Source: Streptomyces aurantiacus
GTDB taxonomy: Bacteria; Actinomycetota; Actinomycetes; Streptomycetales; Streptomycetaceae
Length of the DNA stretch: 64,000 nt
Assembly (NCBI RefSeq): GCF_027107535.1
Contig: NZ_CP114283.1
Span: 7,998,001 to 8,062,000 of the forward strand
Reading direction: 5' to 3'
The stretch's first letter is position 1. The number at the start of each line of letters is the position of its first letter. Below are positions 18,114 to 43,386 of this stretch, in pieces. Below the pieces are notes generated by a model, which saw only the letters and a program-made list of their open reading frames with translations, was not told the origin of the DNA and searched no databases. The position numbers were made by a program, and so were the translations under genes.

Positions 18114-18185
18114 GCCCCCGTAGCTCAGGGGATAGAGCAACGGCCTCCGGAGCCGTGTGCGCAGGTTCGAATCCTGCCGGGGGCA
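18114..18185 (+). tRNA. tRNA-Arg, anticodon CCG; insertion target of both elements
   Basis: 72 nt without encoded CCA. Acceptor stem GCCCCCG/CGGGGGC is perfect, the D-stem is GCTC/GAGC, the anticodon stem ACGGC/GCCGT has loop CTCCGGA (anticodon CCG at 18147-18149, decoding CGG), and the T-arm has GCAGG-TTCGAAT-CCTGC. The 3' half from 18145 is part of the 46-bp att repeat, so integration restores an intact tRNA. Confidence 0.95.
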
Positions 18186-18190
18186 CTCGC
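18145..18190. repeat. Attachment site att (tRNA-side copy)
   Basis: 46 bp identical to 43341-43386, starting at the anticodon loop of tRNA-Arg and running 5 bp past the tRNA end. This is the left junction of element 1. The flanking 40 bp downstream are similar but not identical between the two copies, showing that related elements use the same site. Confidence 0.92.
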
Positions 18191-18237
18191 CACACAGCCA
18201 GCAAGAACAAGGCGCTGAGCTGGGCGGATGCCGACAT

Positions 18238-18276
18238 GAAAGAGCGGGAGTCAGTCTCACTGACTCCCGCTCTTTC
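18238..18276. terminator. Hairpin between tRNA-Arg and int of element 1
   Basis: Near-perfect inverted repeat (core 18241-18255 with 18259-18273, 3-nt loop CTC) ending in CTCTTTC. It can terminate the tRNA transcript and, from the other side, transcripts coming through int. The counterpart in element 2 is 43432-43472. Confidence 0.85.
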
Positions 18277-18296
18277 TCGTTGTCTCTCACTGTTCG

Positions 18297-18313
18297 CGCA
18301 CTATCTGCGATAC
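18297..18313. repeat. 17-bp repeat near left end of element 1 (candidate integrase arm site)
   Basis: CGCACTATCTGCGATAC occurs here, 107 bp inside attL, and again at 43248-43264, 77 bp inside the right end of element 1. Paired sites flanking the core att are expected for arm-type binding by a tyrosine integrase; function is inference. Confidence 0.5.
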
Positions 18314-18338
18314 ACGCGACACGCCTCCGACACAGTGC

Positions 18339-19100
18339 TCAGGGGTCCTTCCGCTTCCTGCCGTCTGGGGTGCCGCCCTTCGCGATCACGCTGGCAGCCA
18401 CCGCATCGAGTGCCGCCACCGCTACATCCGAGCCATCGCCTTCTACTGCCTCTGCGAGATTGCGGTATGCAATGTAGGCGGATGGGTTCACGAGGCGATC
18501 AGCGTGCCATGTGAAGACAACAAGCTCGCGCCAGCCCTCCTTGTGCCCTAGGAGCGCTTCGATTGCGACCTGACATGGGCGCGCTTCCGGGACGAAGTAA
18601 CGAGGTTTGCTCGTACCGAACTCGATGAACAACTGTTCTGCTGACCTGCCAGGTACCGCAAAAGCAGCAGGCAGCTTCACCCCATCGTCTTCCTCAGGAC
18701 GGAGATGAGACCTCGACGACGTCCACGGCAAAGGCGTCGTTGACACCAGGTCGTCGTCACGGAAGGAAATCCGCAAGTCTCTGACGACAATCGGCTTGGC
18801 GCCCGTGTTGTAGAAAACAACAGGGAACCGGATACGCGACTGGGAGACAGTCACCGCCCCAGCGAAGGTGAGAGGCTCCCATGACTTCAGCCGACCTTGT
18901 CGAGCATTGAGCCACCAGAACGAGGCGACCGTGAACACAAGGGCACAGGCTCCGACGAAAGCGGCGGCGGGCAGCGTGCTCTGCTGCTCTGTGGCGACCA
19001 TCAGTAACAACATGGCATGAGTCTGCCAGTTGGGTCGACCCTCGAAAAACCTCCGGATCTTTCCGGGCGACCGGGGGCGGTCCTCGAACCCCCGATTCAA
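18339..19100 (-). CDS. Hypothetical membrane protein with extracellular/immunoglobulin-like segment
   Basis: 253 aa, no family recognised. Two hydrophobic stretches (about residues 30-40 and 44-65, LPAAAFVGACALVFTVASFW) are followed by a soluble part beginning PVVFYNTGAKPIVVRDLRISF, the kind of beta-rich sequence seen in Ig-like domains. The annotated start is TTG 19100, without a clear ribosome site; ATG near residue 30 is an alternative. The codon string coding MLLLMV contains TTA, so expression would depend on the bldA tRNA. It lies downstream of int and is not a standard AICE backbone gene, so it is probably cargo at the element end. Confidence 0.6.
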   Translation of the reverse strand: MNRGFEDRPRSPGKIRRFFEGRPNWQTHAMLLLMVATEQQSTLPAAAFVGACALVFTVASFWWLNARQGRLKSWEPLTFAGAVTVSQSRIRFPVVFYNTGAKPIVVRDLRISFRDDDLVSTTPLPWTSSRSHLRPEEDDGVKLPAAFAVPGRSAEQLFIEFGTSKPRYFVPEARPCQVAIEALLGHKEGWRELVVFTWHADRLVNPSAYIAYRNLAEAVEGDGSDVAVAALDAVAASVIAKGGTPDGRKRKDP

Positions 19101-19121
19101 GGACCAAGAGCGGCCTGCGAG

Positions 19122-20582
19122 TTAAACAACATCGCCGTCTGCCTCCAAAGCAGTCGAAATCTTCAAGTTGGCCACTTCCTCGTGCCCGTCGATACAGCCG
19201 TGGTACCGGCGGTGAATCACCTCCGGGGAGTTGCCAACCCTTCGGGCCACCTCAGCGATCGGAACCCCTGCGTTTAGCCACCGCGTAATGCATGCGTGCC
19301 GCAAGTCGTACGGGCGTCCGGCCAAGGGCGAGTCGACGCGCTCAGGCGGGAGGGCGAACAGCCGCGCTTCCTCCCACACACGCCAGTACGTGGATGAGCC
19401 GACCACTCCCCCACGCTCATTCCCGAACACACGGTTCTCCTTGGCGGTCCCGAACTCCTTCAGATGGGACCGAAGGATTGCGACCAGGACGGGCGGGATG
19501 GGGACCGGACGGTCCGTGTCCGCCTCCCGCGCCTTCAGGCCCCGGCGGTCGTGCCGCTCCCCGGAGTCTGTCCACTGCTTGCCGGAGACAGGACGTGTCT
19601 CCCGCAGTGTCAGCGTGCCCCAACCCACGTCCGGGAGGTGGCAGTCGGACAGCCGCAGTCCAACCGCCTCGGCGGGCCTGAGACCCGCGTAGTAGAGCAC
19701 GGCGTAGAACGCGACCAGGCGCCGCCCGCGGCTGCGGTCCCATGAGCCGACGTAGGAGACGGCGGTGAGCAACTGGCGGCCCTGTACGGCGTTCACGAGG
19801 ACGCGCCGGTCCACCACCGCGCCGGAGCCCACGCGCTTCTTGTGGGCCCCTTGGAGGGGGTTTTCCGGGAGTTCCTTGGCGGCCACCGCATGTTCGAGAG
19901 CGGTGTTCAGGGCGCGGCGTCGCCGCTTGTGTGTCTCGCCTGCCGCCGGAGTGCCGTCCAGTCGATAGCTAAGCCGGTAAACCACGTCCTCGAACACCTC
20001 GGAGTCGACCAGGTCGACAACCGGCCGGTCCTGCGTTGTGAGCCACTCGTACGCGGCTTTCAGTTCGGCCGGCGGTTCCTGCCCCGCGTTCGTGGGGACG
20101 ATCCCCCACCGAAAGGCCAGTCGTAGATCCGTGTCGTCAGGGGTGTTCTCCCCGCGCTTCACCATGGCGAGCGCCACGGCCGCAAGTCCGTCCGCCATGC
20201 CCTCTCGGGTCTTGGCGGCACTCAGACGCCACCGCCCGGCAATGTACTTCCGGCAGAACTCGAACCACCGCAACGACGGCTTGGCCTCGGCCACGGTGGC
20301 CGCCGCTTCCGCCGCGCGGACCTCGGACTCAGGCTGCCCGCTTGTGATCTCGAACGCTTCCCCCCGTCGCATGGCCTGACGCAGCTCCGAGCGTCGACTC
20401 TCGGCAAGTGCTGAGGTGGCGAACGTCGCGCTGCTGACCTTCCCGCCCACGACCCAACGGAGTTGGTACGGACGCGCCTTCCGGTCAACCCTCGTGACCT
20501 TCCAGAGTCGGACATCGAGGGAGTACCCCGGTCGGGCCGACCCGTGGGGGCGGCGAGCCGGGGTGCCTTCTGTCGTGCTCAC
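19122..20582 (-). CDS. int: Site-specific tyrosine recombinase (integrase) of element 1
   Basis: Catalyses integration into and excision from the tRNA-Arg att site. About 486 aa. An Arm/AP2-like N-terminal region (RPYQLRWVVGGKVSSATF) and SAM-like core-binding domain precede the catalytic domain. Catalytic residues are visible: Arg in YAGLRPAEAVGLRLS, HxxR-type box RPYDLRHACITRWL, and the tyrosine in EVIHRRYHGCIDGHEE. GTG 20582 overlaps the xis stop by four bases (GTGA), which fixes the start. The sequence is clearly homologous to the integrase of element 2, consistent with the shared att. Confidence 0.95.
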   Translation of the reverse strand: MSTTEGTPARRPHGSARPGYSLDVRLWKVTRVDRKARPYQLRWVVGGKVSSATFATSALAESRRSELRQAMRRGEAFEITSGQPESEVRAAEAAATVAEAKPSLRWFEFCRKYIAGRWRLSAAKTREGMADGLAAVALAMVKRGENTPDDTDLRLAFRWGIVPTNAGQEPPAELKAAYEWLTTQDRPVVDLVDSEVFEDVVYRLSYRLDGTPAAGETHKRRRRALNTALEHAVAAKELPENPLQGAHKKRVGSGAVVDRRVLVNAVQGRQLLTAVSYVGSWDRSRGRRLVAFYAVLYYAGLRPAEAVGLRLSDCHLPDVGWGTLTLRETRPVSGKQWTDSGERHDRRGLKAREADTDRPVPIPPVLVAILRSHLKEFGTAKENRVFGNERGGVVGSSTYWRVWEEARLFALPPERVDSPLAGRPYDLRHACITRWLNAGVPIAEVARRVGNSPEVIHRRYHGCIDGHEEVANLKISTALEADGDVV

Positions 20583-20773
20583 GCGGCGTCCTCCCGCGCC
20601 GCAAGCCACCGCTCGTACTCGGATCGGCGGATTCGTACGTCACCGTTGGGAAGCTTGATCGAACGAGGGGCCTTCCCGAGTTGGCGCCACCGGTAGAACG
20701 TCGACGGAGCCACCTTCAGATCAGTGATGACCTCCGCGACGGTCAACTTCTCGTCCAGCGCGCGGGAACTCAT
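20579..20773 (-). CDS. xis: Excisionase / recombination directionality factor (MerR-AlpA type HTH)
   Basis: 64 aa, one winged helix-turn-helix: LTVAEVITDLKVAPSTFYRWRQLGKAP, wing RSIKLPNGDVRIRRSEYERWL. It would bind att arms and drive excision. It overlaps repA by ATGA at the start and int by GTGA at the stop, so rep-xis-int form a coupled operon. Confidence 0.92.
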   Translation of the reverse strand: MSSRALDEKLTVAEVITDLKVAPSTFYRWRQLGKAPRSIKLPNGDVRIRRSEYERWLAAREDAA

Positions 20774-21927
20774 ACCGCCGTCCCTTCGGCCTCGGTCGAC
20801 CCGGACAGCCCGGACAGCTCCAATTCCGACTGTCCGGGGTATTCGTGCTGGTCAGGTGAGGTAGCCGGACAGTCGGACAGCTCGGACACCTCCGGTACGC
20901 CCTGTGTCCGGGTCTCGGTGTCCGGGTAATACCGGCCGCTGCCGTCCCTGGTGAGCTGTCCCGCCTCGGCCATGCGGGAGCACGTCCGCCGAATCGTGTC
21001 GATGTCGACCTGCGACAGCTCGCCCGCCATGTCCTTGGGCTTCGCTCCGGGATGAGCACGGACATAGCGCAGAATCGCGGCTCGGGTGTCCCCAACGGTG
21101 TGGTCGGTCGCAGGACCGTCCAGCAAGTGCCAGGCTCCGGAAGCAGATTGGAACTGAAGCGCGTACTCCGCTTCGTCCACGTCCCGGCCGGTGACGTGCA
21201 GGATGCCGTCTGCCTGCCCGCGCGCCCGCTTCAGTACGAGCGTGGCGTCCGCGGCGCCCGCGATGCCGTTGGTCCCGGAGACCTCCGTCAGGAAGTCCTC
21301 GGAAGCAGCCTTGCGCACGTGGTGGACGAGGACGACAGCCACGCTGTAGTGATCAGCGAGCCGCTTCGCATAGCTGACGGACACATAGTCGGCGTCGTAC
21401 GCCGAAACCCCTTGCGGGGCCTGTCCGCGCATCTTGGCGAACACGTCAATGACGACCATGCGCGCATCGAGGTTGCGGTCCAACCACTGCGCGATGGCCT
21501 CTGTGCCGCCCTGGGGGAAGGGCGGGCACTCGGTGACCAGGGTCAGACCGGCAGGCGCCGGCTGTCCCCCCAGGAGCTTGCCCATGCGGCTCTGAAGGCG
21601 ACGCGGGGTGTCCTCCAAAGCGAGGTAGAGGACCGGTCCGCCCGGAACAGGCACGGAGTCGAACGCCTGCCCTCCGGCTGCAACCGCGAGGGCGAGCCCG
21701 AGAGACAGCCATGACTTGCCGACCTTGGGCGGTCCGGCGAGCAAGCTCACGCCTTCGGCGAGGATGCCGGGCACGGCCCATTTCGGCTCGGGGAACTGCG
21801 TGGCCATGAGCTGATCGGCCGTCCACGCGGTCCGCGGGCGCTCCCGCTTCGGCGGTGCCACTGCCGAGGGCTGAGAGTCGCTGGGCACGGAGTACAGGTG
21901 CAGGGGCGGGATCGGGTTGGCGCTCAC
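20770..21927 (-). CDS. RepA/DnaB-like AAA+ (RecA-fold) helicase ATPase
   Basis: 385 aa. Walker A AGPPKVGKSWLS at residues 64-75, ALEDTPRRLQSRMG (arginine-rich motif after the second strand), Walker B MVVIDVFAKM and a VLVHHVRKA sensor histidine motif. This is the hexameric RepA-type replicative helicase fold used by plasmids and AICEs. A winged-helix-like segment follows (TRAAILRYVRAHPGAKPKDM ... RRTCSRMAEAGQLTRDG), then a Ser/Glu-rich tail coded by the GGACAG repeats. It overlaps the prim-pol upstream and xis downstream by ATGA. With the prim-pol it probably forms a helicase-primase replication pair instead of a RepSA rolling-circle initiator. Confidence 0.85.
   Translation of the reverse strand: MSANPIPPLHLYSVPSDSQPSAVAPPKRERPRTAWTADQLMATQFPEPKWAVPGILAEGVSLLAGPPKVGKSWLSLGLALAVAAGGQAFDSVPVPGGPVLYLALEDTPRRLQSRMGKLLGGQPAPAGLTLVTECPPFPQGGTEAIAQWLDRNLDARMVVIDVFAKMRGQAPQGVSAYDADYVSVSYAKRLADHYSVAVVLVHHVRKAASEDFLTEVSGTNGIAGAADATLVLKRARGQADGILHVTGRDVDEAEYALQFQSASGAWHLLDGPATDHTVGDTRAAILRYVRAHPGAKPKDMAGELSQVDIDTIRRTCSRMAEAGQLTRDGSGRYYPDTETRTQGVPEVSELSDCPATSPDQHEYPGQSELELSGLSGSTEAEGTAV
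20798..20934. repeat. GGACAG/CTGTCC repeat cluster at the 3' end of repA (candidate origin iterons)
   Basis: Four GGACAG copies, one CTGTCC and several GGACA/TGTCC half copies lie within about 140 bp. The strings TCCGACTGTCCGG and CGACTGTCCGGGG recur at 35709-35785. They encode the low-complexity ELSGLSG C-terminus of the ATPase. The place, next to xis on the replication side, matches the iteron array of element 2. Confidence 0.5.
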
Positions 21928-22823
21928 GCGGCGACCGTCCTGGGTCGCCGTGCTCCGGTCCTGAGCCCGGAGGCGATGGTGCGGTGCGCCTCGCGCTCGC
22001 CCTGGCCGACTTGGAGAGCAGCGGTCAGCAGCCAGCCACTCACGTCGGCTTCACTCAGCTCTCCCCCGGCAACAAGCTGTCCGAGGGCGACCGAAGCGAT
22101 GAACAGCGCATTGTTGTGCTGGTCCTCTCCGGACTCGGCGACCCGCGCCACTTCACCGTTGACCGCGGACCGCAGGAAGGCCGCACGTCGTCCGCGACCG
22201 GTGAGGGCGACCCTGATGGGCTTCTGTGGCGGCAGCGGGGCGGGCCGAAGGAGTTCGGCGAGCCAGCCTGGCAAGGGCGCCACGGGGGCGTTGTGGGCCA
22301 CCTCGTACGTGCGTCCGGCAAAGGTGCTGCCTGCGGCGACCACGAGTCCGCCCACGGCGCGGGTGTCGACCTTCCAGCCCAGTCCTCGGGCGCTGTCCCC
22401 GGCGGTGTTGCGCAGGGGCTCGCCCCCGGGCGCGGCGAAGTACAGGTGAGTGCCGCCACTCCATGTGCGGACCGTGTACGTGTCGGCGGGGAAGGGCTGG
22501 CCGTGGCGCTCGCAGAGCAGGGCGAGCACGTCGGCTCCGTCCGTGACCCCATGCTCGGCCCAATCGGCCGGCGGGGTGTCTGCGGCGTGCTTGGGCCGGT
22601 CCAAGTCGATGGTGACCAGACCTGAAGGCCCGGCGGCAATACCGACGTTGTACGCGGCGCGTGACCAGCATCGGGTGATGCGCTCGCAGTCGGTGGTGGC
22701 GTGCTGTTCCCATGCGGAGATGGCGGGGCGCTTGTCACCAGGCACGAGAGGGAAGACGTGCCAGTCTCGCGACGCTGCGTCAAGCGCTGAGGCGAGCTGG
22801 GCAGGGCCGTCGGAGTACGGCAT
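21924..22823 (-). CDS. Bifunctional DNA primase/polymerase (prim-pol, AEP family)
   Basis: About 299 aa. Synthesises primers and short DNA for replication of the excised element. Prim-pol features: DWHVFPLVPGDKRPAI at the N-terminus, the acidic motif VTIDLDRPK (residues ~70-78) and VRTWSGGTHLYFAAPG. ATG 22823 (MPYSDGPAQ) is chosen because AGGAG lies 9 nt upstream, right after hairpin module A; the longer in-frame ORF reads antisense of the methyltransferase. Stop overlaps the ATPase start by ATGA. Confidence 0.88.
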   Translation of the reverse strand: MPYSDGPAQLASALDAASRDWHVFPLVPGDKRPAISAWEQHATTDCERITRCWSRAAYNVGIAAGPSGLVTIDLDRPKHAADTPPADWAEHGVTDGADVLALLCERHGQPFPADTYTVRTWSGGTHLYFAAPGGEPLRNTAGDSARGLGWKVDTRAVGGLVVAAGSTFAGRTYEVAHNAPVAPLPGWLAELLRPAPLPPQKPIRVALTGRGRRAAFLRSAVNGEVARVAESGEDQHNNALFIASVALGQLVAGGELSEADVSGWLLTAALQVGQGEREAHRTIASGLRTGARRPRTVAA

Positions 22824-22826
22824 CCT

Positions 22827-22915
22827 GGGGTTCTCCTGTTCTGTCTTCGGATGGGCAGGGAGAACCGCGGCGGCGGGCGACCTTGCTGGGGAGTCCCGCC
22901 GCCGCGGCGTTGCTA
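22827..22915. repeat. Hairpin module, copy A
   Basis: 89-bp intergenic module nearly identical to 24198-24287. It runs from the TAG stop of the upstream gene to the ribosome site of the downstream gene. A 13-bp perfect stem (22865-22877 with 22895-22907) closes a 17-nt loop containing CCTTGCTGGGGAG. It may be an attenuator or RNA processing/stability element. Confidence 0.85.
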
Positions 22916-24193: not shown

Positions 24194-24197
24194 GCTG

Positions 24198-24287
24198 GGG
24201 GTTCTCCTGTTTCTGACTTCGGATTGGCAGGGAGAACCGCGGCGGCGGGCGACCTTGCTGGGGAGTCCCGCCGCCGCGGCGTTGCTA
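24198..24287. repeat. Hairpin module, copy B
   Basis: Second copy of the module, stem 24237-24249 with 24267-24279. It ends on the stop codon of the MazG-like gene and starts at the ribosome site of the methyltransferase. Only a few mismatches to copy A, outside stem and loop. Confidence 0.85.
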
Positions 24288-26531: not shown

Positions 26532-28753
26532 TCAGCCTCCGGACCGCTTTCCGTCACGCTGGGTGATGGCAGTGGTGATGTCGGCGCGGGCGATGCCGCG
26601 GCGGGTGGTGCCCTTGCCCTTGTCGGTCGTGCCCCACACGTCCTGGACGGTGACGCCGTGCGGCTTGAGGTTCGAGGTGACCGTCTCGCCCTTCCAGCCG
26701 CCGTAGATCTCCGGCCGGAGCGTGGCGAGGCGGGCGGCGACCTTCTCGTTCCACACCTTGTCCTCATCGGCCGCAACGACCCTGAGGATGTCGGCGAGCA
26801 GGTCGAAGGCAGCTTCGCCGCTCTCGGGTGCCTGGCCGATCGCGTGACCGGTGACGTTGCCGTACTCCTCGCGCATCTTGCGGGCGCGGATCACGACCTT
26901 CTCGGCTCCGACCGCGTCGACGAACGCGGAGGCGACGATGCGCGGGTCATCGCCCTCGCCGGCCATCCAGCAGATTCCGCGGTCGGAGCGGGAGAACATG
27001 GTGGCCCGGTATCCGGCTTGTACATCGAGGTGCCGAGCACCATGTCGTTGGCGGGCTGCCCCATCACCTTCAGGCAGAACCTGAGCACGGCGTTGGCGCT
27101 GATGCCGGTGGGCAGTGACTTGGCGTCCGGCCGCTGCGTGCCGAACAGCGTCACCATGCCCAGCGCCGGACCGCGCTTGCCCAGGTCGGTGGCGATGGCT
27201 TCGATCTCCGCGCCGTACTTCTCGTGCTCGAAGGGGACTTGGCACTCATCGAACCCGGCCACGATCGGGTGCAGCCCAAGGGACTTGTCGTTGGCCAGCT
27301 CGGGGGTGACCTTCGACTCCGGGCAGCGCGAGCGCGGCAGGGACTTGATGACCTTCGCCCGCCTGCGCAGCTCCGCGCGCAGCTCCCGCAGCGATTCCAG
27401 GACGTAGAGGATGTCTTCGTCCTCGTCTCCGGCCCGGTAGCGGTGGCAGACCGGTTCGAGTGCGCCGAAGTCGCCGGTGCCCTTGAAGTCGAACGCGTAC
27501 AGCGCGGCGCGCGGGTCGAGAGCGGCGATGAGCAGGAACAGCCGCATCAGGAACGTCTTGCCCATGCGCGGGATCGAGCCGACAACCACGCTCGCGAACA
27601 TCAGGGTCACGTCCACGTCGCCCATGCGCTGGTCGTTGCCGAACACGACCGGCTTGAACAGATCCACGCTGCCCGACTTCAGCAGCGGCCACGCAGGCTT
27701 GGTCGTCTCGTTCATGGGCTTGTCGCCCACCCACAGGATCATCCGACCCTCGTGCTCATCCGGATCGGCCGACGGCCACACGCAACCGACCTTGCGACGC
27801 AGCCCGGACGCGAGCGGCTTACGCGCCTCCATGATGTCCTCCGGAGTGACACCCCAGGGCAGGTCCAGGTCGGCACGGTAGCCGGGTCCGTCGCGGGTGA
27901 TCTCGCTGGTGAAGCGCATGCCGTTCATGTCGCCGCCTTTCTTGATGGCGGCCGTCAGCTTCGGGTTGCCGATGTTGTCCAGCGCTCGCAGCACGATCGG
28001 GCCGGTGAGCTTCTGAATCTCGGTCTTCAGGACCGCGGGCCCGATCACGGGATGATCCGCGGGCTGTCCCCAGAACCCGGCGACCAGCACCGCAGCCGCG
28101 GCCAGCACCCCCAGCCAGACCGGGGCCATCACGTACAGGGTCAGCGCGAACGCAGCTCCGAAGATGACCGCGACCGTGGTGACCAGGACCCGCAGCCGCA
28201 CCCGTCCGTCGCGCTGGCGGGAGAGCTTCAGGTACTCGGCGGTGTTCTCGTGCAGTACCTCGTACGCACGCAGCGGGGCACCCTCGGCGTCCCACACCCA
28301 CCGGTTGGTGTCCCGCACGAAACGGGCCGCCCCGGTCGGCGAGTTGAGGGTGAGCTGCAGGGCGTACCAGGGCGTACGGATGCCGTGGAACGCGGTGGCG
28401 TAGAAGGCGTTACCGGTGGCCCGCTGCGCGGTCGACACGAACCCCGGCTTCGAGGTGAGCCAACTCGGCAGAATCGGCCGCCGCTTGTAGGTGGTGATCC
28501 CCGGCGCCGGAAGGTCGGGCCGGTCGACCGGAACCCGTCGGGCGACTCGGTCGCCCGACTCCTCATCGTCCGGGTCGGCCGACCCCGTACCCGACTCGGT
28601 CGTGCGGGAGTCGGGCGACGGGGCGACGGTTGGGTTGGTCGACTGGTCGCGGGCGGATCGAGCCTTGTCGAGGTCGACCACGTCCGCGCCGGAGTCGGCG
28701 CCCATCTCGGCTTCGAGCCGGTTGAACAGTTCGTTGTCGTCGGGCTGGTTCAC
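26532..28753 (-). pseudogene. traB: FtsK/SpoIIIE-type conjugal DNA translocase TraB, frameshifted
   Basis: Hexameric pump that moves double-stranded DNA between mycelia. From ATG 28753 one frame gives residues 1-~580: acidic N-terminus, two or three membrane helices (about 200-230), Walker A VVGSIPRMGKTFLM, YAFDFKGTGDF, Walker B IVAGFDECQV and LFGTQRPDAKSLPTGISANA. That frame then runs into nonsense (MYKPDTGPP) and stops at 26891. The expected continuation GYRATMFSRSDRGICWM and the C-terminal winged-helix region lie in another frame ending at 26532. One missing base in the Lys-Ala junction around 27017-27023 explains it. Without the C-terminal domain the pump should not recognise its DNA site. 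Confidence 0.85.
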
Positions 28754-28903: not shown

Positions 28904-29287
28904 TCAGGCGACGCGCTGTTCTTCGAGGGCGATGCACAGACCGCAGATGCCGTACGAGGTCGGGATGCAGTAGCCGACATCGATCCGGCAGCGCGGGCAG
29001 GTGCGGCGGGCGAGCATCGCCAGCGCGAGCGCGCCCCACTTGCGCGACGTCATCGGTCGGACCGGCTTGGCCAGGTCGACGCGGTAGAGGTACGCGACGC
29101 GGACGCCACCGGCGCGCCGGTTGGCCCGCATCACCTGCGCCTGTATCTGTTGCCCGCCCGGCCGCAACCCCTTCACGCGGAGCTGCCGACGCGTGGCGTA
29201 TCCGTCCGGGGCGAGGCGCCACGGGTAGGTGGGCACGCCGTAGCGGGCGCCGGTCGGGTCGAAGCACTTGCCGTAGACGGCGGACAT
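28904..29287 (-). CDS. RRQRL-motif type zinc-binding protein
   Basis: 127 aa. It contains YATRRQLRVKGLRPGGQ, close to the RRQRL signature of a protein family I know from Streptomyces integrative elements, and a C-terminal zinc cluster RRTCPRCRIDVGYCIPTSYG with C-x2-C and C..C (ICGLC). Function unknown, nucleic-acid contact likely. Its start overlaps the GGDEF stop by one base (TGATG). traB follows after the tRNA-like segment. Confidence 0.75.
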   Translation of the reverse strand: MSAVYGKCFDPTGARYGVPTYPWRLAPDGYATRRQLRVKGLRPGGQQIQAQVMRANRRAGGVRVAYLYRVDLAKPVRPMTSRKWGALALAMLARRTCPRCRIDVGYCIPTSYGICGLCIALEEQRVA

Positions 29288-29940
29288 CAGGCGGCCACCG
29301 CCCCATACTGCTCGCCGGCAGTGCGGGCGCCGGTGCGGCCGGAGCGGCGGCCGGTGACGGTGGCGAACAGCCGTCCCAGTCCCGCGCGGCGCAGACCGGC
29401 ACGGCCCTGCTTGGCCGCGTACATCGCCTCATCCGCCTGCCGCAACAGACCGGACAGGTCATTGGCAGGGAAGTCGGCGGCGCGGACCCAGCCGAGCGAG
29501 ACCGTGGTGTGTATGTCCGGGTCCTGGCCGTCGACCGGGCGCGCGAGCACGCCGTGCAGGACGGCGAGCAGATCCGCCGCGGTCCCGTGGTCGTCGATGA
29601 CGACGGCGGCGAATTCATCACCCCCGAGCCGTCCAACAACTCCGGACGGGCCGACGTGGTGGGCGAGGCGCGCCGCGGTCGCCTTCAACAGGGCGTCCCC
29701 GGCGTCATGGCCGTGGGTGTCGTTGATCTGCTTGAAGCGGTCGACGTCGGCCAGCACCACCACCGCGCGCGGGTCCTTCAGGAGCGCCGTAGCGCGGCGG
29801 GTGAACCCGTCGCGGGTGCGTAAGCCGGTGAGCGGGTCACGGCGGGCGGTGTGCAGGCGAGCGCGCAGCCACCAGACATGAAACGCCCAACCCGCGGCCA
29901 GGGGCAGCGTGGACAGCAGGACCGTGGTCAGGGTGCTCAT
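29287..29940 (-). CDS. Membrane-anchored GGDEF protein (putative diguanylate cyclase)
   Basis: About 217 aa: one N-terminal transmembrane helix (STLTTVLLSTLPLAAGWAF) then a single GGDEF domain: DPLTGLRTRDGF, the metal-binding LADVDRFKQINDTHGHDAGD, and the intact active site GRLGGDEFAAVV (GGDEF at 106-110), followed by a family C-terminal LLRQADEAMYAAKQ. No RxxD inhibitory site precedes GGDEF. It should make c-di-GMP, which in Streptomyces holds BldD active and delays sporulation. ATG 29940 overlaps the upstream gene by ATGA. Longer in-frame ORF is rejected. Confidence 0.88.
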   Translation of the reverse strand: MSTLTTVLLSTLPLAAGWAFHVWWLRARLHTARRDPLTGLRTRDGFTRRATALLKDPRAVVVLADVDRFKQINDTHGHDAGDALLKATAARLAHHVGPSGVVGRLGGDEFAAVVIDDHGTAADLLAVLHGVLARPVDGQDPDIHTTVSLGWVRAADFPANDLSGLLRQADEAMYAAKQGRAGLRRAGLGRLFATVTGRRSGRTGARTAGEQYGAVAA

Positions 29941-31228: not shown

Positions 31229-31239
31229 GTTGCTCTCCT

Positions 31240-31303
31240 GAGTCGAAGGAACAGGGAGAGCCGCGGCGGCGGGCGACCTTGCTGGGGAGTCCCGATGCCG
31301 TGG
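31240..31303. repeat. Hairpin module, copy C (degenerate)
   Basis: Shares stem-left arm and the 17-nt loop exactly with copies A and B (31261-31290), but the right arm (31291-31303) has two mismatches, so the stem is weakened. It lies in the leader of the first gene of the operon. Confidence 0.75.
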
Positions 31304-31464
31304 CCACACCCCACAATGCGTGGTGTGTATTACTTACCACTCAAGCTGACAGATCGATTCCGCGTCGTCAAGCGCTCTGGCTTTCGATCTCGGAACCGCC
31401 GATCTGCCCCGCGGCGGTGACTCAACCATCGCCAAAGGGGAGGGACTTCGGGAGCGTGCACTTG

Positions 31465-31484: not shown

Positions 31485-32470
31485 TGTGGGCGAACCCTCT
31501 GCACACCTGACCTGACCTGCGTAGAGTGACGGTGAGTCAAGCTGAGACTTCGGCCGCTCCTGGGGGATCCGTGGCAGACAGGAATGCCAAACTGGCCGCT
31601 CTCATGGATGAGGGCGGCTTCTCACACAAGTCACTCGCCCGCGCGGTGGTCGTCGCTGCTGCCCGATCCGGTGCCGACATCACCTGTGACCACACCTACG
31701 TGAGCCGATGGCTCAAGGGCTCTATCCCGCGCGGCGACATGCCTCGCTTCATCGCCGATGCCATCGGGCGCAAGCTGGGGTGCCAACTCGCAATTGATGA
31801 CATCGGGATGGGCGAGGCGGCGGTCTCCGCCGTACAACCTGACCTTGGCCTCGACTTCGCGGACCGTCCCGAGTCGGTCACCGCCACCGTGGCGGACCTC
31901 TGGCGCGCCGACCTCGCCGAAGCCGAACCGCTGGTTCGAGCGCTGCCGGACTCCGCCGCGTGGAACGAAGCCTCCTTGCGGTGGCTCGTCTCTCCGCCGG
32001 ACGGCGAACTCACGCGGTTGGGCAACCGGTCCGTCGGCGCCGTGGACGTCGACATGATCCGCTCGACGGCCGACGCGTTCAGCATGCTCGACGGCAAGTT
32101 CGGCGGGGGCCACGCGCGACGCGCGCTAATTCAGTACCTGCACACGGACGTACGGCCCATGCTCGACGGCAAGTACTCCGACGCCGTGGGCAAGCAACTC
32201 CACTCGGCAGTAGCCGAAGCGCTCATGCTCGCCGGATGGATGTCGTACGACAGCTGCTTGCACGGCATCGCCCAGCGCTACTTCATCCAGGCATTGCGCA
32301 TGGCCCAAGCGGCCGGTGACCGGCTACTCGGTGGCAGCATCCTCTCCGCAATGAGCCATCAAGCTACCTTCGTCGGCCGCTACCGCGAGGCCGCAACTCT
32401 GGCACGTGCCGCGCTCACGGGTCCGGCCGCGAGCCTCTGAAGTTCCCCCCGCGAACTGGACAGCGGGTGT

Positions 32471-35785: not shown

Positions 35786-35797
35786 TCGGAGGCGAAC

Positions 35798-36337: not shown

Positions 36338-36414
36338 GGCTGCAACACCCGGGGTGTTGCAGCACGTCGGCGAAGCCGACCTCTCAATGGGCGTAGGAGC
36401 CGGATACGACTTCC
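36338..36414. repeat. 77-bp repeat, copy 1
   Basis: About 90% identical (8 mismatches by eye) to 43166-43242. It contains hairpin GCTGCAACACC/GGTGTTGCAGC and a second one GTCGGCGAAGCCGAC. It lies between the SLATT-like gene and the GNAT gene, where it could terminate one and regulate the other. Confidence 0.8.
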
Positions 36415-37296: not shown

Positions 37297-37354
37297 TCCC
37301 GCACAACCCTCCTTTACAACACACCACAGGTCGTCACGATTTCCGTGTTAAACG

Positions 37355-37909
37355 CTACGCTTCAGGCGCTGGCGCGGCCAGACTACTGCGCGAAACCTCA
37401 GACAACGCATCAAGCCCCAGATGGGAACGAACCGCATTTCTAAACGGAGCGATCAGATTGTAGATATCATCAGCATGGGCATATTTCATCTGCTCAGTTA
37501 CAGGGACACCCTGAGCAGCACGATTGAACTCGCTCCACGGTTCATTGAATCTCTCCGCAGCAGCGATCAGGCTAGAGGTGGCTGTTAGCGTCAGATCTGC
37601 GATCGCATCATGGACCGCGCGCGAGCGTTCGCTGTATACACAAAAAGGGTCGTCCACCTTTGCCGGTTGCATTGTGATCAACACGCGGCCGACGTTCAGA
37701 CTGGTTATGTAGGTGGCATACGACCCTAAGGCTGAAATGTACTTCAACGACGTCTCGCGGAGAGGCGTGGCCAGCCTGTGATGGTCTTCTCGATCTCGAC
37801 GGCGCCGCTCCGTGCGCAGTGCAATGGCCTGAGCGATGGCTACGCCGATCAGCGCGAGCATGCCAGCCAGCGCGGGCGTTGCCCACCACGGAGTGATTGA
37901 AGTAGCCAC
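37355..37909 (-). CDS. Hypothetical membrane-anchored protein next to the SLATT-like gene
   Basis: 184 aa. One N-terminal transmembrane helix (ALAGMLALIGVAIAQAIAL) followed by a basic stretch RTERRRRDRED and a helical cytoplasmic domain. No family recognised. GTG 37909 with an AGGGGG upstream. It precedes the SLATT-like gene by 58 bp on the same strand and probably is co-transcribed with it; a partner or immunity role is inference. Confidence 0.58.
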   Translation of the reverse strand: MATSITPWWATPALAGMLALIGVAIAQAIALRTERRRRDREDHHRLATPLRETSLKYISALGSYATYITSLNVGRVLITMQPAKVDDPFCVYSERSRAVHDAIADLTLTATSSLIAAAERFNEPWSEFNRAAQGVPVTEQMKYAHADDIYNLIAPFRNAVRSHLGLDALSEVSRSSLAAPAPEA

Positions 37910-37933
37910 GGTGTACCCCCTAGCGACGACGGT

Positions 37934-38131
37934 TCATCCGACCCGATCGAAGATCGTACTGTCCGCTGCGGTGGTAGGAGTGAGGGTCTGTAATTCCCCT
38001 ACGTTCACCGCGCCGGAAGCGGGCCTCGTGTCCTGACGGGCGCTTCGGAACAACGATCCATGCTCAGCCTGCTTCACAGGACGGACATCGAAGCGGGGCG
38101 ATCCAGGAAGTTCCGACACACCTTGCGCCAT
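37934..38131 (-). CDS. Small hypothetical protein
   Basis: 65 aa beginning MAQGVSELPGSPRF. ATG 38131 has a strong GAGGAG six nt upstream, the main support. It would head the operon of the two membrane-protein genes, 24 bp before the next start. No motif recognised. Confidence 0.45.
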   Translation of the reverse strand: MAQGVSELPGSPRFDVRPVKQAEHGSLFRSARQDTRPASGAVNVGELQTLTPTTAADSTIFDRVG

Positions 38132-38609
38132 AGCTTGCTCCTCACGGACCGTCACCGCAGGTCAGAGGTGTTAGGAAGCCTGAACGGCACGATCACTCCG
38201 AGACATTCACACACCGCCTGGTCGCGTGTCGGCGATGACGGTGCGAGGCCAGCCGGTCGGCCTGATACCAGCTTGGGTACGAACACTGAAGGGTCAAGGT
38301 GTCGCGCCCTTCCCTGGATCAGCATTGTCGGCCACAGTGTGTGGGGGAGCTGAGAGGTGAGGTGGGGCGTGCCTCGATGGAGGGCGTTGCCGGATGAACT
38401 TGATCCGCAGGTCAAAGAATTCGCCGGTCAGTTGCGTCGGCTCGTCGATCGCAGCGGGCTGAGCATCGCCGCAGTAGCCGACCGCACGGGCTACAGCAAG
38501 GCGTCTTGGGAGCGGTATCTCAACGGCCGGCTCCTTGCGCCTAGTACTCCAGCCGTAGATCGTGATCACGCGTGGCTGTGGCGGGCTCGTCAGGCACTAC
38601 GGGGAGGGC

Positions 38610-39194
38610 TTACTGTCCGCCGAGTTGGAGCACAGCAACCACGTACAGGCTCCCGGCCACGGTCAGAAGCAGAAAAGAAAGAACCGTATGGGCGACGAGC
38701 CCTCGCCCTGGAGCAAGGCCCAGATGCGCCCGGGCCGCACGGCTCACATGGGGCCCGGTGACACCTCGCGCGGCGTTCGCGTCCGCCTTCTCGATCGCTC
38801 GGCGTAGTTTCCTGCGGCTTCTCTCGGTCGTGATACCCAGGCGCACACCGTCGGCGTCGCGCACCCACAGCGTCCGGTACGCGCTGCCGTACGAGAAGGT
38901 CGTCAGCAGTCGGACGGAGGTGATCTGGTTGAGATCGACGGACCGCTCGCCGGTCAAGGTGCGCGCAGTCAGGTGCGACGATGAGTGCCGGAACGGGGCT
39001 CGCTCCTCGCACAACGCGGGTAGGAGGACGAAGCCGGTGATCATGGACAGCAGGCCAAGCACGATGGGTGCGCCGTCCGGGGCTACCCCCGCCCTGGCCA
39101 GCCCGTAGCCACCGAGAGGCAGCAGAAGAACCGTCACCGCCAGGCCCGATCCGATGCGGGCACGTGCCACGCTGCGGGTTGTGGTTGCTTCCAC
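38610..39194 (-). CDS. Passenger gene: PH-domain-like membrane protein
   Basis: 194 aa with transmembrane helices at about 16-34 (SGLAVTVLLLPLGGYGLARA), 44-60 (LGLLSMITGFVLLPAL) and 170-190 (VLSFLLLTVAGSLYVVAVL). The middle (HLTARTLTGERSVDLNQITS, then RTLWVRDADGVRLGI) has the strand pattern of bacterial PH-like domains. It lies inside the IS701 terminal repeats, divergent from the transposase. Function in transposition is unlikely; it is probably host or element cargo captured by the IS. Confidence 0.68.
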   Translation of the reverse strand: MEATTTRSVARARIGSGLAVTVLLLPLGGYGLARAGVAPDGAPIVLGLLSMITGFVLLPALCEERAPFRHSSSHLTARTLTGERSVDLNQITSVRLLTTFSYGSAYRTLWVRDADGVRLGITTERSRRKLRRAIEKADANAARGVTGPHVSRAARAHLGLAPGRGLVAHTVLSFLLLTVAGSLYVVAVLQLGGQ

Positions 39195-39375
39195 TGACGC
39201 CCCCGTTTCTGTCGGCGGACATCAGCATGCATGTACGGCGGACCTTCGCACATTGCCAGCGTCCGGCAATCTTCTGCTCGGGATCCGCCGGGGCCGGGCC
39301 CAAGTATCAGGACGACTCCGTGATCTCGTCGTTCGCCGCGGGAACAGGACGGCCACCGCGTGATCTTGGTGAGGT

Positions 39376-40695
39376 GTGTGGACTCTTCAAGATAGTGCGG
39401 TGGCCGCGCGCCACGGTGTAGACCCTGCCCGCTGGCAGGACGCGTTCGAGGCCCTGATGGGCCGGATATCGGGCCGGTTCGCGCGGGTTGAACCACGGCG
39501 CCAGGCGAAGGCCATGTTGTTCGGGCTGCTGTCAGACCTCCCGCGCAAGAACTGCTGGTCGATCGCCGAGTGGGCTGGGCAGACGAGCCCGGACGGTATG
39601 CAGCACCTGCTCGGCCGGGCCAGGTGGGATGCCGACCGCGTGCGTGATGACGTGTGTGAGTACGTGCTGGAGCATCTGCACGACGAGGATGCGGTGCTGG
39701 TGGTCGACGAGACCGGGGACGTAAAGAAGGGCACACACACTGTGGGCGTCCAGCGTCAATACACCGGAACCGCCGGGAGGATCGAAAATGCACAGGTAGC
39801 GGTCTACCTCGTGTACGCCGGCCGCCGCGGGCACGCGGCGGTGGACCGCGAGCTGTACATCCCGCGCTCGTGGACGTGCGACCCGGACCGCTGCAGGGCC
39901 GCTGGGCTGGGCGAGAACACCGTCTTCGCGACCAAGCCGGAACTGGCCGCCCGCATGATCAGCCGGTTCTTCGACGCCGGGCACCACGTGGGCTGGGTCA
40001 CGGGGGACGAGGTCTACGGCGGCAACCCGACGCTGCGGTCCGCGCTGCAGGAGCGCGGCATCGGCTACGTGCTTGCCATCGCCTGCTCTCACGAAGTCAC
40101 CTCCGGTGCCGGGAAGTTCCGTGCGGACGCCCTGGCCGCGAAGGTGCCGAAGCGAGCCTGGCAGAAGCTGTCAGCAGGGTCTGGCGCCAAGGGGCACCGC
40201 TTCTACGACTGGGCCGTCATCGACCTGGCCGAAGTACGGCCCGGAAGTCACCAGCTGCTGATCCGCCGCAACCGCACCACCGGTGAACTCGCCTACTACC
40301 GCTGCTTCTCGCCCGCCCCGGTGCCCCTGGCCACGCTGGTCCGCGTCGCCGGGTCCAGATGGCGGGTGGAAGAGACTTTCCAGGCCGGAAAGGGCCTGGC
40401 CGGACTGGACGAACACCAGGTCCGCCGCTATACCTCGTGGTCACGCTGGGTCACCCTGGCCATGCTCGCCCACGCCTTCCTCGCCGTGGTCCGCGCTGAC
40501 GAACACGTTCGCCATCCCACCCCGGACGGGTTGATCCCCCTCACCTGCAACGAGATCCAGCGACTGTTCACGATGCTGGTCGTCCGGCCCGTGCACGACG
40601 TGGCCCACCGGCTCGCCTGGTCCGCCTGGCGACGTCGCCACCAGGCCCGTGCTCGGGCCGGCCATTACCGGAGGCAAGCCGCAAGCCAGACGTGA
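39376..40695 (+). CDS. IS701-family DDE transposase
   Basis: 439 aa from GTG 39376. DDE residues: VLVVDETGDVKKGTHTVGV, GWVTGDEVYGGNP, and WRVEETFQAGKGLAGLDEHQ. N-terminal region RRQAKAMLFGLLSDLPRKNCW typical of IS701. The frame is complete, so the element may still be active. Confidence 0.94.
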   Translation: MWTLQDSAVAARHGVDPARWQDAFEALMGRISGRFARVEPRRQAKAMLFGLLSDLPRKNCWSIAEWAGQTSPDGMQHLLGRARWDADRVRDDVCEYVLEHLHDEDAVLVVDETGDVKKGTHTVGVQRQYTGTAGRIENAQVAVYLVYAGRRGHAAVDRELYIPRSWTCDPDRCRAAGLGENTVFATKPELAARMISRFFDAGHHVGWVTGDEVYGGNPTLRSALQERGIGYVLAIACSHEVTSGAGKFRADALAAKVPKRAWQKLSAGSGAKGHRFYDWAVIDLAEVRPGSHQLLIRRNRTTGELAYYRCFSPAPVPLATLVRVAGSRWRVEETFQAGKGLAGLDEHQVRRYTSWSRWVTLAMLAHAFLAVVRADEHVRHPTPDGLIPLTCNEIQRLFTMLVVRPVHDVAHRLAWSAWRRRHQARARAGHYRRQAASQT

Positions 40696-41083
40696 AGATC
40701 ACGATCTACGGCTGGAGTACTAGGGGCGCGATTGTCGCCCTGGCCGAAGTGACCGGTACCAACCCTGTCCATCTCACGACTATGTGGGAGCTGGCCGAGC
40801 GCGCCTGGAGCCGCTCAGAGATGCGCCACGACATGACCATGGAAGCGATCCAAATTTCCCATGCTCACTCCGCCCATCTCGACATGGGTACACCGCGGCT
40901 ATACGCCCGAGGAAGTTGGGCAGCTCGAACGGAAGTTGCTCCTATTGTGGGCCTAGCCGCAGTTGAGACACCTGATTCGACGGGCATCGCTGACGGCCTT
41001 GAGGCTCTGTTCCAACGTCTCGGACCGCCCCCTGATTCACTCTCCGTGCAGCCTGTTGGCGCAAAGGACGGGGGTGGGGTCCG

Positions 41084-41551
41084 GTGACAGCAAGTTGGAG
41101 AGACTGGAAGCAAGAACCAGCCGGGTTCGGAATAGCCAAGCAGTGGGCTGAGTTGCCAGCCGAGCACCTAAAGATTGCTCTGGAAGCACTGGAACCGCAG
41201 CTTCAAAGAGAACACGAAGCGCAGATGGAACACATGCGCCTTGCCGCGCAAGAATCGGAAGCTGGTCGCGCACATCGGTTGTACATGTGTGGCCTCATCG
41301 CCGGTTTCGTAGTGACCATCGGCATGCTGGCTGGCGCCGTCGTGGTGGGGAGCAACAACCAGCCTGTCCTCGCAGGCATTCTGTCTGGCCCTAGCGTCAT
41401 TGCACTGGCGTCAGTCTTTGTGCTGCGCCGCAATGACGCCTCACAGATGCGAGCTGTTGCACGGGCACATCAGTCAGTAATGAACGCGGCCACCTCGGCT
41501 GGCGCACCCCCCATACCGCCTGCTGGTCCAAGTGCTGGCAGCCCTGTGTGA
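41084..41551 (+). CDS. DUF2335-like membrane protein
   Basis: 155 aa. A coiled, Glu-rich N-terminal part (EALEPQLQREHEAQMEHMRL) leads into two transmembrane helices (LIAGFVVTIGMLAGAVVVG and VLAGILSGPSVIALASVFVL), the DUF2335 layout. GTG 41084 overlaps the XRE stop. The XRE-plus-2TM pairing recalls toxin-antitoxin or phage-defence regulation, but I cannot support more than that. Confidence 0.65.
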   Translation: MTASWRDWKQEPAGFGIAKQWAELPAEHLKIALEALEPQLQREHEAQMEHMRLAAQESEAGRAHRLYMCGLIAGFVVTIGMLAGAVVVGSNNQPVLAGILSGPSVIALASVFVLRRNDASQMRAVARAHQSVMNAATSAGAPPIPPAGPSAGSPV

Positions 41552-41708
41552 CTCGCCCTTCTTAAACCGCTCGGCGTCTCCTCCTCGCTTCTGCGACACA
41601 CCTCCGACACAACCAAGGCCACCGTGCAGCCTGGATCGCATTGCGTTGCAGGTCAGATGAGGCATCAGCATTGAACGGCACAATCTCTCCGGAGTGTTGT
41701 ACGACTGT

Positions 41709-43010
41709 TCAGCTGACCCATATGCCATCGGGTGAGAGACGGCGAGCAAGACGCCGGCCCGCGGCGCTTACGGGAGTCGACCAGGACACATCCGAAACCT
41801 TGCATCCAAAGTCAGTGGCGAGTGCCTGTACGAGCGTGGCACCAATGCCACGACGCCTGTAGACGTCCGCTACCCAAATTAGGACGATTCGAGGGCGCAG
41901 GGTGGCGTCCTCATCGCCGTACGGGGACCCGTCGATGAGATCCCAACGGCGGTGCTCGTTAGTGTCTTGGGCGGCCACGTAGCCAATGATGCACTCGTCT
42001 ACCTTCAACAGATACGCACGATAGTTGTCCGTAGTCACTTCAGGTTCACCGACATGGGACCACGACGGGAAGTCGTAGCTGTCCTCCCTCTGCGGCATAC
42101 GCGCCACTTGGTGGGCCAATCTCCGCCACGAAATCGGTGACTGCGTCGCGACAACTGCCAGGTCACCCCACCAGTCAAGTCCCTTCGGCACTCGAACACC
42201 TAGGGCCCAAGACGCATGATGCACGCGGTGGACGTTGTCATCGTCGTCTACATCCCGAAAACGCATGCCACAGGGGCACTTGTCGCTACTCGGTGTCTCC
42301 AACTGCTGGAACTGGACTGGGATCGCGCCACGGCTAAGGTCCTCGCCACCGCCTCCTACCCAAGGCCGGAAGGGTGCATCATCCGACTCGACGTAACCGG
42401 TCCAACGGTCTACCCACCCCGGATGCTGCTCGGGGAACATCTCCCGAATCTGCTTCTGAACCGCTGGCAGTGTGGGGCGAACCCAGACGCTGCCAGCTGT
42501 CGCCCGACCATTGAGGCGCAGGCCGGAGTCCGTTGCCTTAGCTCGCAGGAACTTCAGAAACACTCCTGGGGGTGAATCGAAGTCGACTCCGCGGATCAGC
42601 TCTCGCTCACCAGGAGCAAGCCACTCATCGACGGGCAGCGCGAGCCGCTCGGCGATGGCGTGCAGTTTGCTGTAGTCATTTTCGAGTTCTGCGGCCCGCA
42701 AAGCTTCGACCGTAGCCTCAACGTCTCGAAACCGAGCGCACAAGTCGAGCCAACGAGGGCCGTTCCCCCAGAAGAAGGTCCCTTGGTAACCCTCGTACCG
42801 AATCCGGTTCATTGCCGCATAACGCACCCTGTCGACTGCTGCTAAGTAGTCTGCCGGCAGATCTTTTTCGCCGCCCCGTGAGGATTCCGCATCGACGTAG
42901 CTGTCTCGGTCAAGCTGGATGATGGCGAACTGGCGTGAGGGCCGGATATGGATCCTCCGTGTGTCCCGGCTACTCGCATCAGCGACAAGGTGGATGGTCC
43001 GCTCGGTCAT
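41709..43010 (-). CDS. ESCO/Eco1-like acetyltransferase with zinc finger
   Basis: 433 aa. Residues 1-230 are unrecognised. At 245-265 CPCGMRFRDVDDDDNVHRVHH resembles the CxxCGM...H..HH zinc finger of eukaryotic cohesin acetyltransferases (here CxC spacing). The C-terminus (330-433) is a GNAT-like domain: RIVLIWVADVYRRRGIGATL (acetyl-CoA loop RRxGIG) then SWSTPVSAAGRRLARRL, comparable to the SxPTPxGxxFA motif of ESCO proteins. I infer protein acetylation; target unknown. ATG 43010 has GGAG nine nt upstream. Codon use is less GC-rich than the backbone. It is the last gene of element 1, a cargo position. Confidence 0.6.
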   Translation of the reverse strand: MTERTIHLVADASSRDTRRIHIRPSRQFAIIQLDRDSYVDAESSRGGEKDLPADYLAAVDRVRYAAMNRIRYEGYQGTFFWGNGPRWLDLCARFRDVEATVEALRAAELENDYSKLHAIAERLALPVDEWLAPGERELIRGVDFDSPPGVFLKFLRAKATDSGLRLNGRATAGSVWVRPTLPAVQKQIREMFPEQHPGWVDRWTGYVESDDAPFRPWVGGGGEDLSRGAIPVQFQQLETPSSDKCPCGMRFRDVDDDDNVHRVHHASWALGVRVPKGLDWWGDLAVVATQSPISWRRLAHQVARMPQREDSYDFPSWSHVGEPEVTTDNYRAYLLKVDECIIGYVAAQDTNEHRRWDLIDGSPYGDEDATLRPRIVLIWVADVYRRRGIGATLVQALATDFGCKVSDVSWSTPVSAAGRRLARRLSPDGIWVS

Positions 43011-43165
43011 GCACTCTGCTCCATAGCTCTAGCCGGATCGGTCAGACCGATCATTCCTGTCCCTGCGAGCCTCGGGAAGGGCGCGGACCTGGGGCAAGTC
43101 CTGATCGGCTCAATCACGCTTCGGTGCCAGCACCCCGATGTCGTCCGGCTGTCCAGCTACCGACG

Positions 43166-43242
43166 GGCTGCAACACCCCGGATGTTGCAGCCCGTCGGCG
43201 AAGCCGACCTCTCATCGGGCGCAGGAGCCGGAGGCGACTTCC
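43166..43242. repeat. 77-bp repeat, copy 2
   Basis: Homologue of 36338-36414. It lies in the leader of the ESCO-like gene and directly before the 17-bp arm-type repeat (43248-43264) at the right end of element 1. Carries the same two nested hairpins. Confidence 0.8.
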
Positions 43243-43247
43243 TACTT

Positions 43248-43264
43248 CGCACTATCTGCGATAC
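43248..43264. repeat. 17-bp repeat near right end of element 1
   Basis: CGCACTATCTGCGATAC, identical to 18297-18313; see that entry. 77 bp from the middle att. Confidence 0.5.
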
Positions 43265-43340
43265 AAGAGGGCACCACACACCTCCAGGGATCATGGAACC
43301 TACTGGTCAGGGCCCATTCGCAAGCCGAACTCTGATTGTG

Positions 43341-43386
43341 CTCCGGAGCCGTGTGCGCAGGTTCGAATCCTGCCGGGGGCACTCGC
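43341..43386. repeat. Attachment site att (junction of elements 1 and 2)
   Basis: Perfect copy of 18145-18190. The upstream sequence is not tRNA-like, so this is a 3' half only. It is the right end of element 1 and the left end of element 2. Confidence 0.92.

Follow-up and report, generated by a model that had tools for sequence, protein, structure and literature searches.

A tandem array at a tRNA-Arg(CCG) gene

The stretch analysed here, referred to as the window, comprises 64,000 nucleotides of Streptomyces aurantiacus (G000:C2:7998001-8062000) lying inside a 9.54-Mb contig of a 9.9-Mb genome of two contigs. It harbors an array of integrated elements at an intact tRNA-Arg(CCG) gene (18114-18186, forward strand), the sole tRNA detected in the window by ARAGORN. 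An earlier reading of the letters, hereafter the sequence-only reading, had described two tyrosine-integrase elements in tandem in this gene, bounded by a perfect 46-bp repeat. The 3' part of the tRNA gene is indeed repeated without mismatch over exactly 46 bp on the forward strand, at 18145-18190 (att1, in the tRNA gene itself and at the left end of the first element, E1) and at 43341-43386 (att2, the junction of E1 and the second element, E2), and the next-best match on either strand of the window has 15 mismatches. In continued coordinates, i.e., window numbering carried on beyond 64000, the further copy that the same reading had anticipated to the right is present twice: identical 42-bp cores, of which the 46-bp repeat is an extension by 4 bp, begin at 18145, 43341, 84184 and 85807. 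Genome-wide, a 29-base probe of the repeat with up to 3 mismatches finds four copies, all inside the array. These cores delimit three head-to-tail units, E1 (25,196 bp; 18145-43340), E2 (40,843 bp; 43341-84183, with 43341-64000 within the window) and E3 (1,623 bp), such that the att3 core (84184-84225) is the boundary of E2 and E3 and the att4 core (85807-85848) is the chromosomal end of the array. Both elements of the original description are therefore real, and the description was incomplete in that a third unit lies beyond the window.

The right flank of the fourth core leads to DUF4142, MarR and LacI genes and recurs in two other genomes, to the right of the last core of G109 and of the sole core of G087. 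The G087 core lies between the sequence found here left of the tRNA gene and our right flank, at a distance of about 3.4 kb from the shared genes as against 1.1 kb here. Because one G087 core joins both flanks, the middle core copies are element ends and not chromosomal sites, in agreement with the sequence-only reading, and, judged from these flanks, the fourth core is where the chromosome resumes. A hairpin, identified by eye from the sequence, is present to the right of each of the four cores, and the 94-nt hairpin regions following att1 (18205-18298) and att2 (43400-43493) are 78% identical. The post-core hairpin was considered as a marker of the chromosomal end and dropped, as the element ends in G110 bear hairpins of the same type.

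In both large units the att site and hairpin are followed by an integrase gene and a xis-like gene in the same orientation, as had been described; the integrase, xis-like, replication, DUF3987 and transfer genes of E1 and E2 given below are on the reverse strand. The E1 integrase (Int1; 495 aa, 19122-20609) is a tyrosine recombinase with relatives at the same tRNA gene, and it matches the Pfam family Phage_integrase with an E-value of 4.6e-06 and 26.9 bits, 0.2 short of the cut-off of 27.1. The E2 integrase (Int2; 498 aa, 43531-45027) matches the same family under the cut-off (0.00025, 21.3 bits), and the two proteins share 299 of 471 aligned residues (63%). The xis-like proteins, both matched by Pfam HTH_17 (20579-20773 in E1 and 45024-45215 in E2), are 62% identical over 58 aa. 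The gap between att and int is about 0.15 kb in E2 and about 0.9 kb in E1, where it contains one open reading frame (ORF; 18339-19100), which is without a Pfam hit and was passed over by the gene caller.

Beyond these genes, E1 encodes a replication pair consisting of an AAA_25 ATPase and a Prim-Pol protein (20770-22823; PF13481, 2.3e-36; PF09250, 9.6e-43) and an FtsK-type transfer gene (26891-28753), whose homologues are named FtsK and whose match to FtsK_SpoIIIE, at 15.8 bits, is under the cut-off of 24. The nearest homologues of the transfer protein are about 740 aa long, and two of them (P0001 and P0002) align in two frames, switching after about residue 579. Thus, on alignment the transfer gene looks broken, which would place E1 nearer to a defective actinomycete integrative and conjugative element (AICE). 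The AICE criteria of Ghinet 2011 ask for a tyrosine or serine integrase beside att, a replication protein of the RepSA, RepAM or Prim-Pol type and a Tra protein of the FtsK/SpoIIIE type; E1 has an integrase beside att and a Prim-Pol replication protein. Its other genes encode a methyltransferase, a DUF2637 protein, a GGDEF protein, an NsdA-family regulator, transposases, an APH-like kinase and a GNAT-like protein. The GGDEF protein (diguanylate cyclase; 29287-29940) is encoded between the transfer and DUF2637 genes, an odd spot for a signalling enzyme. NsdA-family regulators (NF053720, cut-off 75) are present in both large units, at 31604-32440 in E1 (267 bits) and 62339-63346 in E2 (132.5 bits). 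We also note a 77-nt direct repeat in E1 (22839-22915, 24211-24287 and 31235-31311; two copies 97% identical, the third 74%) and a separate hairpin-bearing repeat of 77 nt (90%) located inside E1 (36338-36414) and near its right end (43166-43242), with similar stretches in other genomes.

The gene content of E2 is largely different, as just 4 of the 23 called E1 proteins have a match among its 34 proteins. A DUF3987 protein (45522-47072; PF13148, 1.7e-99) is possibly its replication protein, and a gene whose product has no Pfam match and whose homologues are named 'transfer protein' is present at 52738-54108. The remaining genes include a C5 methyltransferase, SSB, the NsdA-family regulator and a GntR-NUDIX protein, whose gene is on the reverse strand and runs past the window end (63330-64118). 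Ghinet 2011 (PMC3218068) assigns a role in conjugal immunity to Pif, a NUDIX protein of pSAM2. The integrase adjoins att in E2 as well, its identification following from the 63% identity to Int1, and neither PF09250 nor PF12307 has a match among the scanned E2 proteins, some small E2 proteins being outside the scan. The label 'AICE-type' given by the sequence-only reading fits the gene set of E1 and is less certain for E2 with regard to the type of replication gene.

A defence-like block occupies E2 from 64338 to 83906 in continued coordinates (L005, L006, L037) and adjoins att3. It encodes an ApeA-type HEPN protein, an NB-ARC/TPR protein, a Schlafen-type helicase, DrmA, DrmB, a NERD helicase and a weakly matching DrmE_C-like protein; in PADLOC, DrmA and DrmB score 2.1e-197 and 3e-62, respectively. 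The definition of DISARM includes DrmC and a neighbouring methyltransferase. Among the scanned E2 cargo proteins neither is found beside DrmA and DrmB, the C5 methyltransferase being about 25 kb off, and the block was for this reason not assigned to DISARM.

End repeats and integrase specificity

Each large unit carries, just inside its two ends, a short direct repeat of its own. The E1 repeat is 18 bp long, with forward-strand copies at 18297-18314 and 43248-43265, and the E2 repeat is 12 bp long, with copies at 43499-43510 (forward strand) and 84099-84110 in continued coordinates. They are placed at similar distances after the left core and before the right core (110 and 75 bp in E1, 116 and 73 bp in E2). 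When up to 3 mismatches are allowed, a 17-base version of the E1 repeat finds nothing further in 97 kb, and the longest cross matches between the E1 and E2 arms are 5 and 4 bases, as against 18 and 12 within their own units. In position-free matching, the length of the E1 repeat is reached by none of 74 mismatched comparisons, and the same holds for the repeat of E3.

Both ends of 40 units (E1, E2, E3 and 37 further ones) were compared, and roughly half of the units show this arrangement. In fixed windows, 21 of the 40 units have own arms that share at least 8 bases, as opposed to 135 of 1540 cross-genome pairs; none of 5000 random re-pairings attains the observed mean, and five shifted window pairs yield 0-3 of 40. 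Moreover, arm matches across units follow the identity of the integrases (ordered pairs): 61 of 110 at 80% identity or above, 8 of 26 at 70-80%, 21 of 116 at 60-70% and 17 of 740 below 60%. The simplest reading is that the direct repeats of E1 and E2 are putative arm-type sites of each element's own integrase. Attachment sites of the lambda type have core and arm-type sites (PMC4111918). The ends described here are similar in that short direct repeats stand at set distances to either side of a core, and differ in that their arm sites are deduced from repeats and geometry alone. Private arms inside a common landing sequence may be the reason that different elements share one site, and they argue against easy cross-mobilisation. 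The sequence-only reading had expected the two elements to mobilise each other, an expectation weakened by the arms that do not cross-match and by the out-of-frame transfer gene of E1, and favored by the tandem AICEs of Frankia, which are reported to excise singly and jointly (Ghinet 2011, PMC3218068).

The core specificity that this reading ascribed to both integrases is borne out by a survey of 150 genomes of the genus, in which 10 candidates scored per genome gave 128 integrase rows, 7 of them from genomes whose core position is unlisted (214 core positions were used, the position being unlisted for 10 of the 146 genomes in which a core matched). Of the 67 rows with relatives of Int1 at 45% identity or more, 58 are on the opposite strand and no more than 6 kb downstream of the core, as compared with 1 of 58 rows below 44% and 1 of 3 between 44 and 45%; the genomes without a listed position account for 2 of the 9 misses in the upper group and for 5 rows below 44%, and the integrase row of G057 is about 3 Mb away from the core of that genome. 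Int2 falls in the upper group. The relation is one-way, as some units at the core have no recognizable Int1 relative. Nine pairs of integrases from array neighbours are 42-67% identical, four of them involving fragments past the core or a second integrase near the unit end, and an unusual divergence of neighbours is not separable, since 856 of 992 ordered pairs in a 32-unit set are also below 70%. Of the element ends, the last 93 bp of E1 were found again at 5 of the 7 further loci inspected, immediately ahead of a core in G016 and G121 and ahead of a partial core in G267. The recurrence of this right arm beside cores elsewhere therefore identifies it as the end of an independent element.

Several observations weigh against the picture of stacked elements with private arms. 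The E2 repeat is equalled or exceeded in 5 of 74 mismatched position-free comparisons; the 12-bp repeat of E3, at 250 and 58 bp, is outside the shared geometry and E3 is not among the 21 matching units; and 19 of the 40 units have no own-arm repeat at 8 bases. The windows were chosen after a first scan of the same units, and the effect is somewhat flattered as a result, the mismatched pairs and shifted windows serving as guards. Close relatives also share arms by descent, and hence the trend with integrase identity agrees with integrase binding and is no proof of it. The right end of E2 is without a relative in 295 genomes, short weak matches aside, and because of this the E2 right boundary rests on att3, the repeat and the left end of E3. 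Finally, the frame break in the E1 transfer gene could be a sequencing error.

The small unit E3 and its toxin-antitoxin lineage

In E3, two genes only were called and no integrase match is found. An antitoxin-like ORF (84737-85021, continued coordinates, forward strand) without Pfam or NCBIfam matches overlaps by 4 bases a PIN-domain toxin gene (85018-85431, forward strand; PF01850, 26.5 bits, cut-off 23.6), and the two are co-conserved. The toxin has no significant match in the PDB (best E-value 0.7). VapBC-type systems pair a PIN-domain toxin with a directly upstream antitoxin from a known family; E3 has such a toxin, and its candidate antitoxin is the ORF without family matches. E3 resembles a cis-mobilisable element (CIME) in that it lies between two att cores and has neither a recombinase nor a conjugation gene of its own. 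Unlike such elements, it is merely 1.6 kb long with a toxin-antitoxin (TA)-like pair, and its mobilisation is putative.

The relatives of this toxin are distributed unevenly with respect to the core. Among the 150 matches listed for the genus sample, to which more could be added, 36 are at least 82% identical to the E3 toxin and 114 are more distant. Of the 36 close copies, 20 follow a core on its own strand at a distance of at most 15 kb, and on the opposite strand none does; 3 more are as near to a core but placed otherwise, and the remaining 13 are not that near. No copy among the 114 distant ones is this near to a core, 10 of them being unplaceable as the core position is unlisted. A second collection, consisting of the 80 best among 447 toxin relatives, overlaps the genus sample (L069 and G062 were taken as one); in it, a core with up to 7 mismatches is present in the fetched flank on the same strand at 30 of 80 loci and on the other strand at none. 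A core or its remnant (up to 8 mismatches) also follows the toxin at 9 of 38 loci, 528-892 bp after the toxin start (789 bp in our genome), whereas at the other 29 the best stretch inside 1.2 kb has 17 mismatches or more, and the control windows, 760 in all, never go below 15. Thus, the TA lineage of E3 is concentrated beside the tRNA-Arg core, often where the integrase has decayed. Seven of the 80 loci, from Nonomuraea and Herbidospora (L082, L084, L085, L086, L098, L101, L110), have a downstream tRNA-Gly(CCC) gene on the opposite strand, which suggests that in these genera the pair rides with elements of another tRNA.

Between the core and the TA pair, an integrase frame is open over at least 450 aa at 6 of 39 loci, represented by shorter pieces at 14 and absent at 19 (one locus is counted under two identifiers, L054 and L069). 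The intact frames therefore establish that a core-integrase-antitoxin-toxin arrangement exists, for example in S. roseolus (L118), where no distal core was found. The first 160-340 bp of E3 resemble the left ends of the loci L061 (76%) and L070 (68%), and on these similarities E3 reads as a reduced form of such an element. That small units at the core generally carry the TA pair was rejected, since it is present in 3 of 16 of them (G000, G007, G062), three further small units that had been picked for carrying the pair being left out of this count.

Based on the end repeats and the TA pair, we tentatively consider an arrangement of shared core and private arms, in which stacking is stable because each integrase reads its own arm and leaves the neighbouring element in place, and in which the core-bounded TA unit at the chromosome end, reduced from the core-integrase-antitoxin-toxin mini-element, acts as an addiction lock that keeps the entire array from being lost; in this full form the idea is possible and somewhat doubtful. 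There is an even chance that the pair of E3 is instead a passive relic whose position by the last core is uninformative about function. Such a relic is consistent with the diverse cargo of the small units in the genus sample, all 16 of which were examined, with the many genomes in which the pair lies beyond the last recognizable core, and with the 16 of 36 close copies that do not follow a core within 15 kb. It is less easily reconciled with the contrast between the close copies, 20 of which share one position and strand, and the distant ones, and with the ratio of nonsynonymous to synonymous substitution rates (dN/dS) of the toxin (median 0.118, range 0.07-0.28 over 49 comparisons passing a motif and frame filter), which indicates purifying selection. 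This selection, however, may date from the time when the elements were active.

Origin of the array and its relation to known systems

We conclude that the locus is, very probably, an accretion array in which two AICE-type elements and the decayed E3 integrated in one tRNA-Arg(CCG) gene. In the sequence, each unit supplies a copy of the tRNA 3' part together with its own hairpin, such that the tRNA gene remains whole. The integrases likely recombine the shared 42-46 bp core; E1 would exit via att1 and att2 with Int1 and Xis1, and E2 via att2 and att3 with Int2 and Xis2. Composite or cross excision would require mismatched arms and is expected to be rarer, and E1, with its broken transfer gene, would probably depend on a helper for transfer. 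As for a free circular form, a 233-base att2 probe matched five plasmid records and one phage record, over little beyond the core or part of it, and an exact search with 38 core bases returned no viral contigs. A 20.9-kb linear 'plasmid' record (NZ_CP109278.1, L231) consists of an AICE-like unit enclosed by two cores, the second being followed by 70 bp from a different flank; it was not used as proof of a free element because a contig severed from a tandem array, possibly during assembly, would look the same.

It is improbable that the region from 18145 to 85807 is a single large composite island, acquired in one event and mobile only in its entirety, with inner cores that are passive leftovers. 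All units do share one orientation, arrival as a ready-made array is compatible with the evidence of a single genome, and joint excision of tandem AICEs has been reported in Frankia (PMC3218068). Nevertheless, both large units own an integrase, a xis-like gene and matching private end repeats, the right arm of E1 is found beside the cores of other genomes, and G068, which has just one core, contains a close Int1 relative (92%). A local duplication of one element into E1 and E2 with later divergence is very improbable, since in spite of the homologous integrase, xis-like and methyltransferase genes and the similar left ends, just 4 of 23 E1 proteins match E2, the replication and transfer genes differ in kind, the end repeats are unlike, and Int1 is nearer to integrases of other genomes (92%, 81-83%) than to Int2 (64% in this comparison).

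Multiple copies of this core are frequent in the genus. Among the 150 Streptomyces genomes, the core (anywhere, up to 3 mismatches) is absent from 4 and occurs once in 91, twice in 38, three times in 13, four times in 3 and six times in 1, that is, at least twice in 55. The 55 inter-core intervals below 150 kb comprise 16 of 1.5-7.5 kb, none of 7.5-13.2 kb, 38 of 13.2-43 kb and one of 123 kb, and elements of intact size and small remnants thus form two size classes. Stacking governs which mobile elements coexist and travel together, and the tRNA-Arg core is a hotspot for it. The E3 remnant offers a test of whether addiction modules hold decayed arrays in place.

The array is ordinary in kind, as stacking at tRNA-Arg has already been published for Streptomyces, and larger than the window shows. 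Choufa 2022 (PMC9513070) describes a Streptomyces population in which a tRNA-Arg gene has accreted one to three elements, AICEs as well as defective AICEs, with identical direct repeats at their ends, plus a remnant without traB; decay and toxin-antitoxin cargo are also described, and cis-mobilisation is proposed. Our array is similar to these in the genus, in a tRNA-Arg target (not necessarily the same gene), in the different element families and in the presence of a remnant; to this comparison we add that, across the 150 genomes, Int1 relatives above 45% identity are nearly all at the core, in a one-way relation. Neither private arm repeats nor a unit with a TA pair only were found in the accessible text of that paper, and among the papers listed by searches of the open literature, subscription papers being outside the search, no title or abstract start concerns the private-arm pattern or a TA-only unit at the site. 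The additions made here are the private-arm pattern and a TA lineage tied to the tRNA core. Ghinet 2011 (PMC3218068) reports the tandem AICEs Sav3708 and Sav3728 in a tRNA-Arg gene of S. avermitilis and the Frankia elements Fean5518 and Fean5534 in a tRNA-Lys gene, which have closely related integrases and excise singly and together, and calls it unclear whether site sharing limits the number of AICEs per genome, a question that gains a simple bench test if the arm sites are private. Like those pairs, the elements described here are tandem AICEs that share one tRNA gene, whereas the Ghinet pairs consist of two units and our array of three, with E1 and E2 end repeats that do not cross-match.

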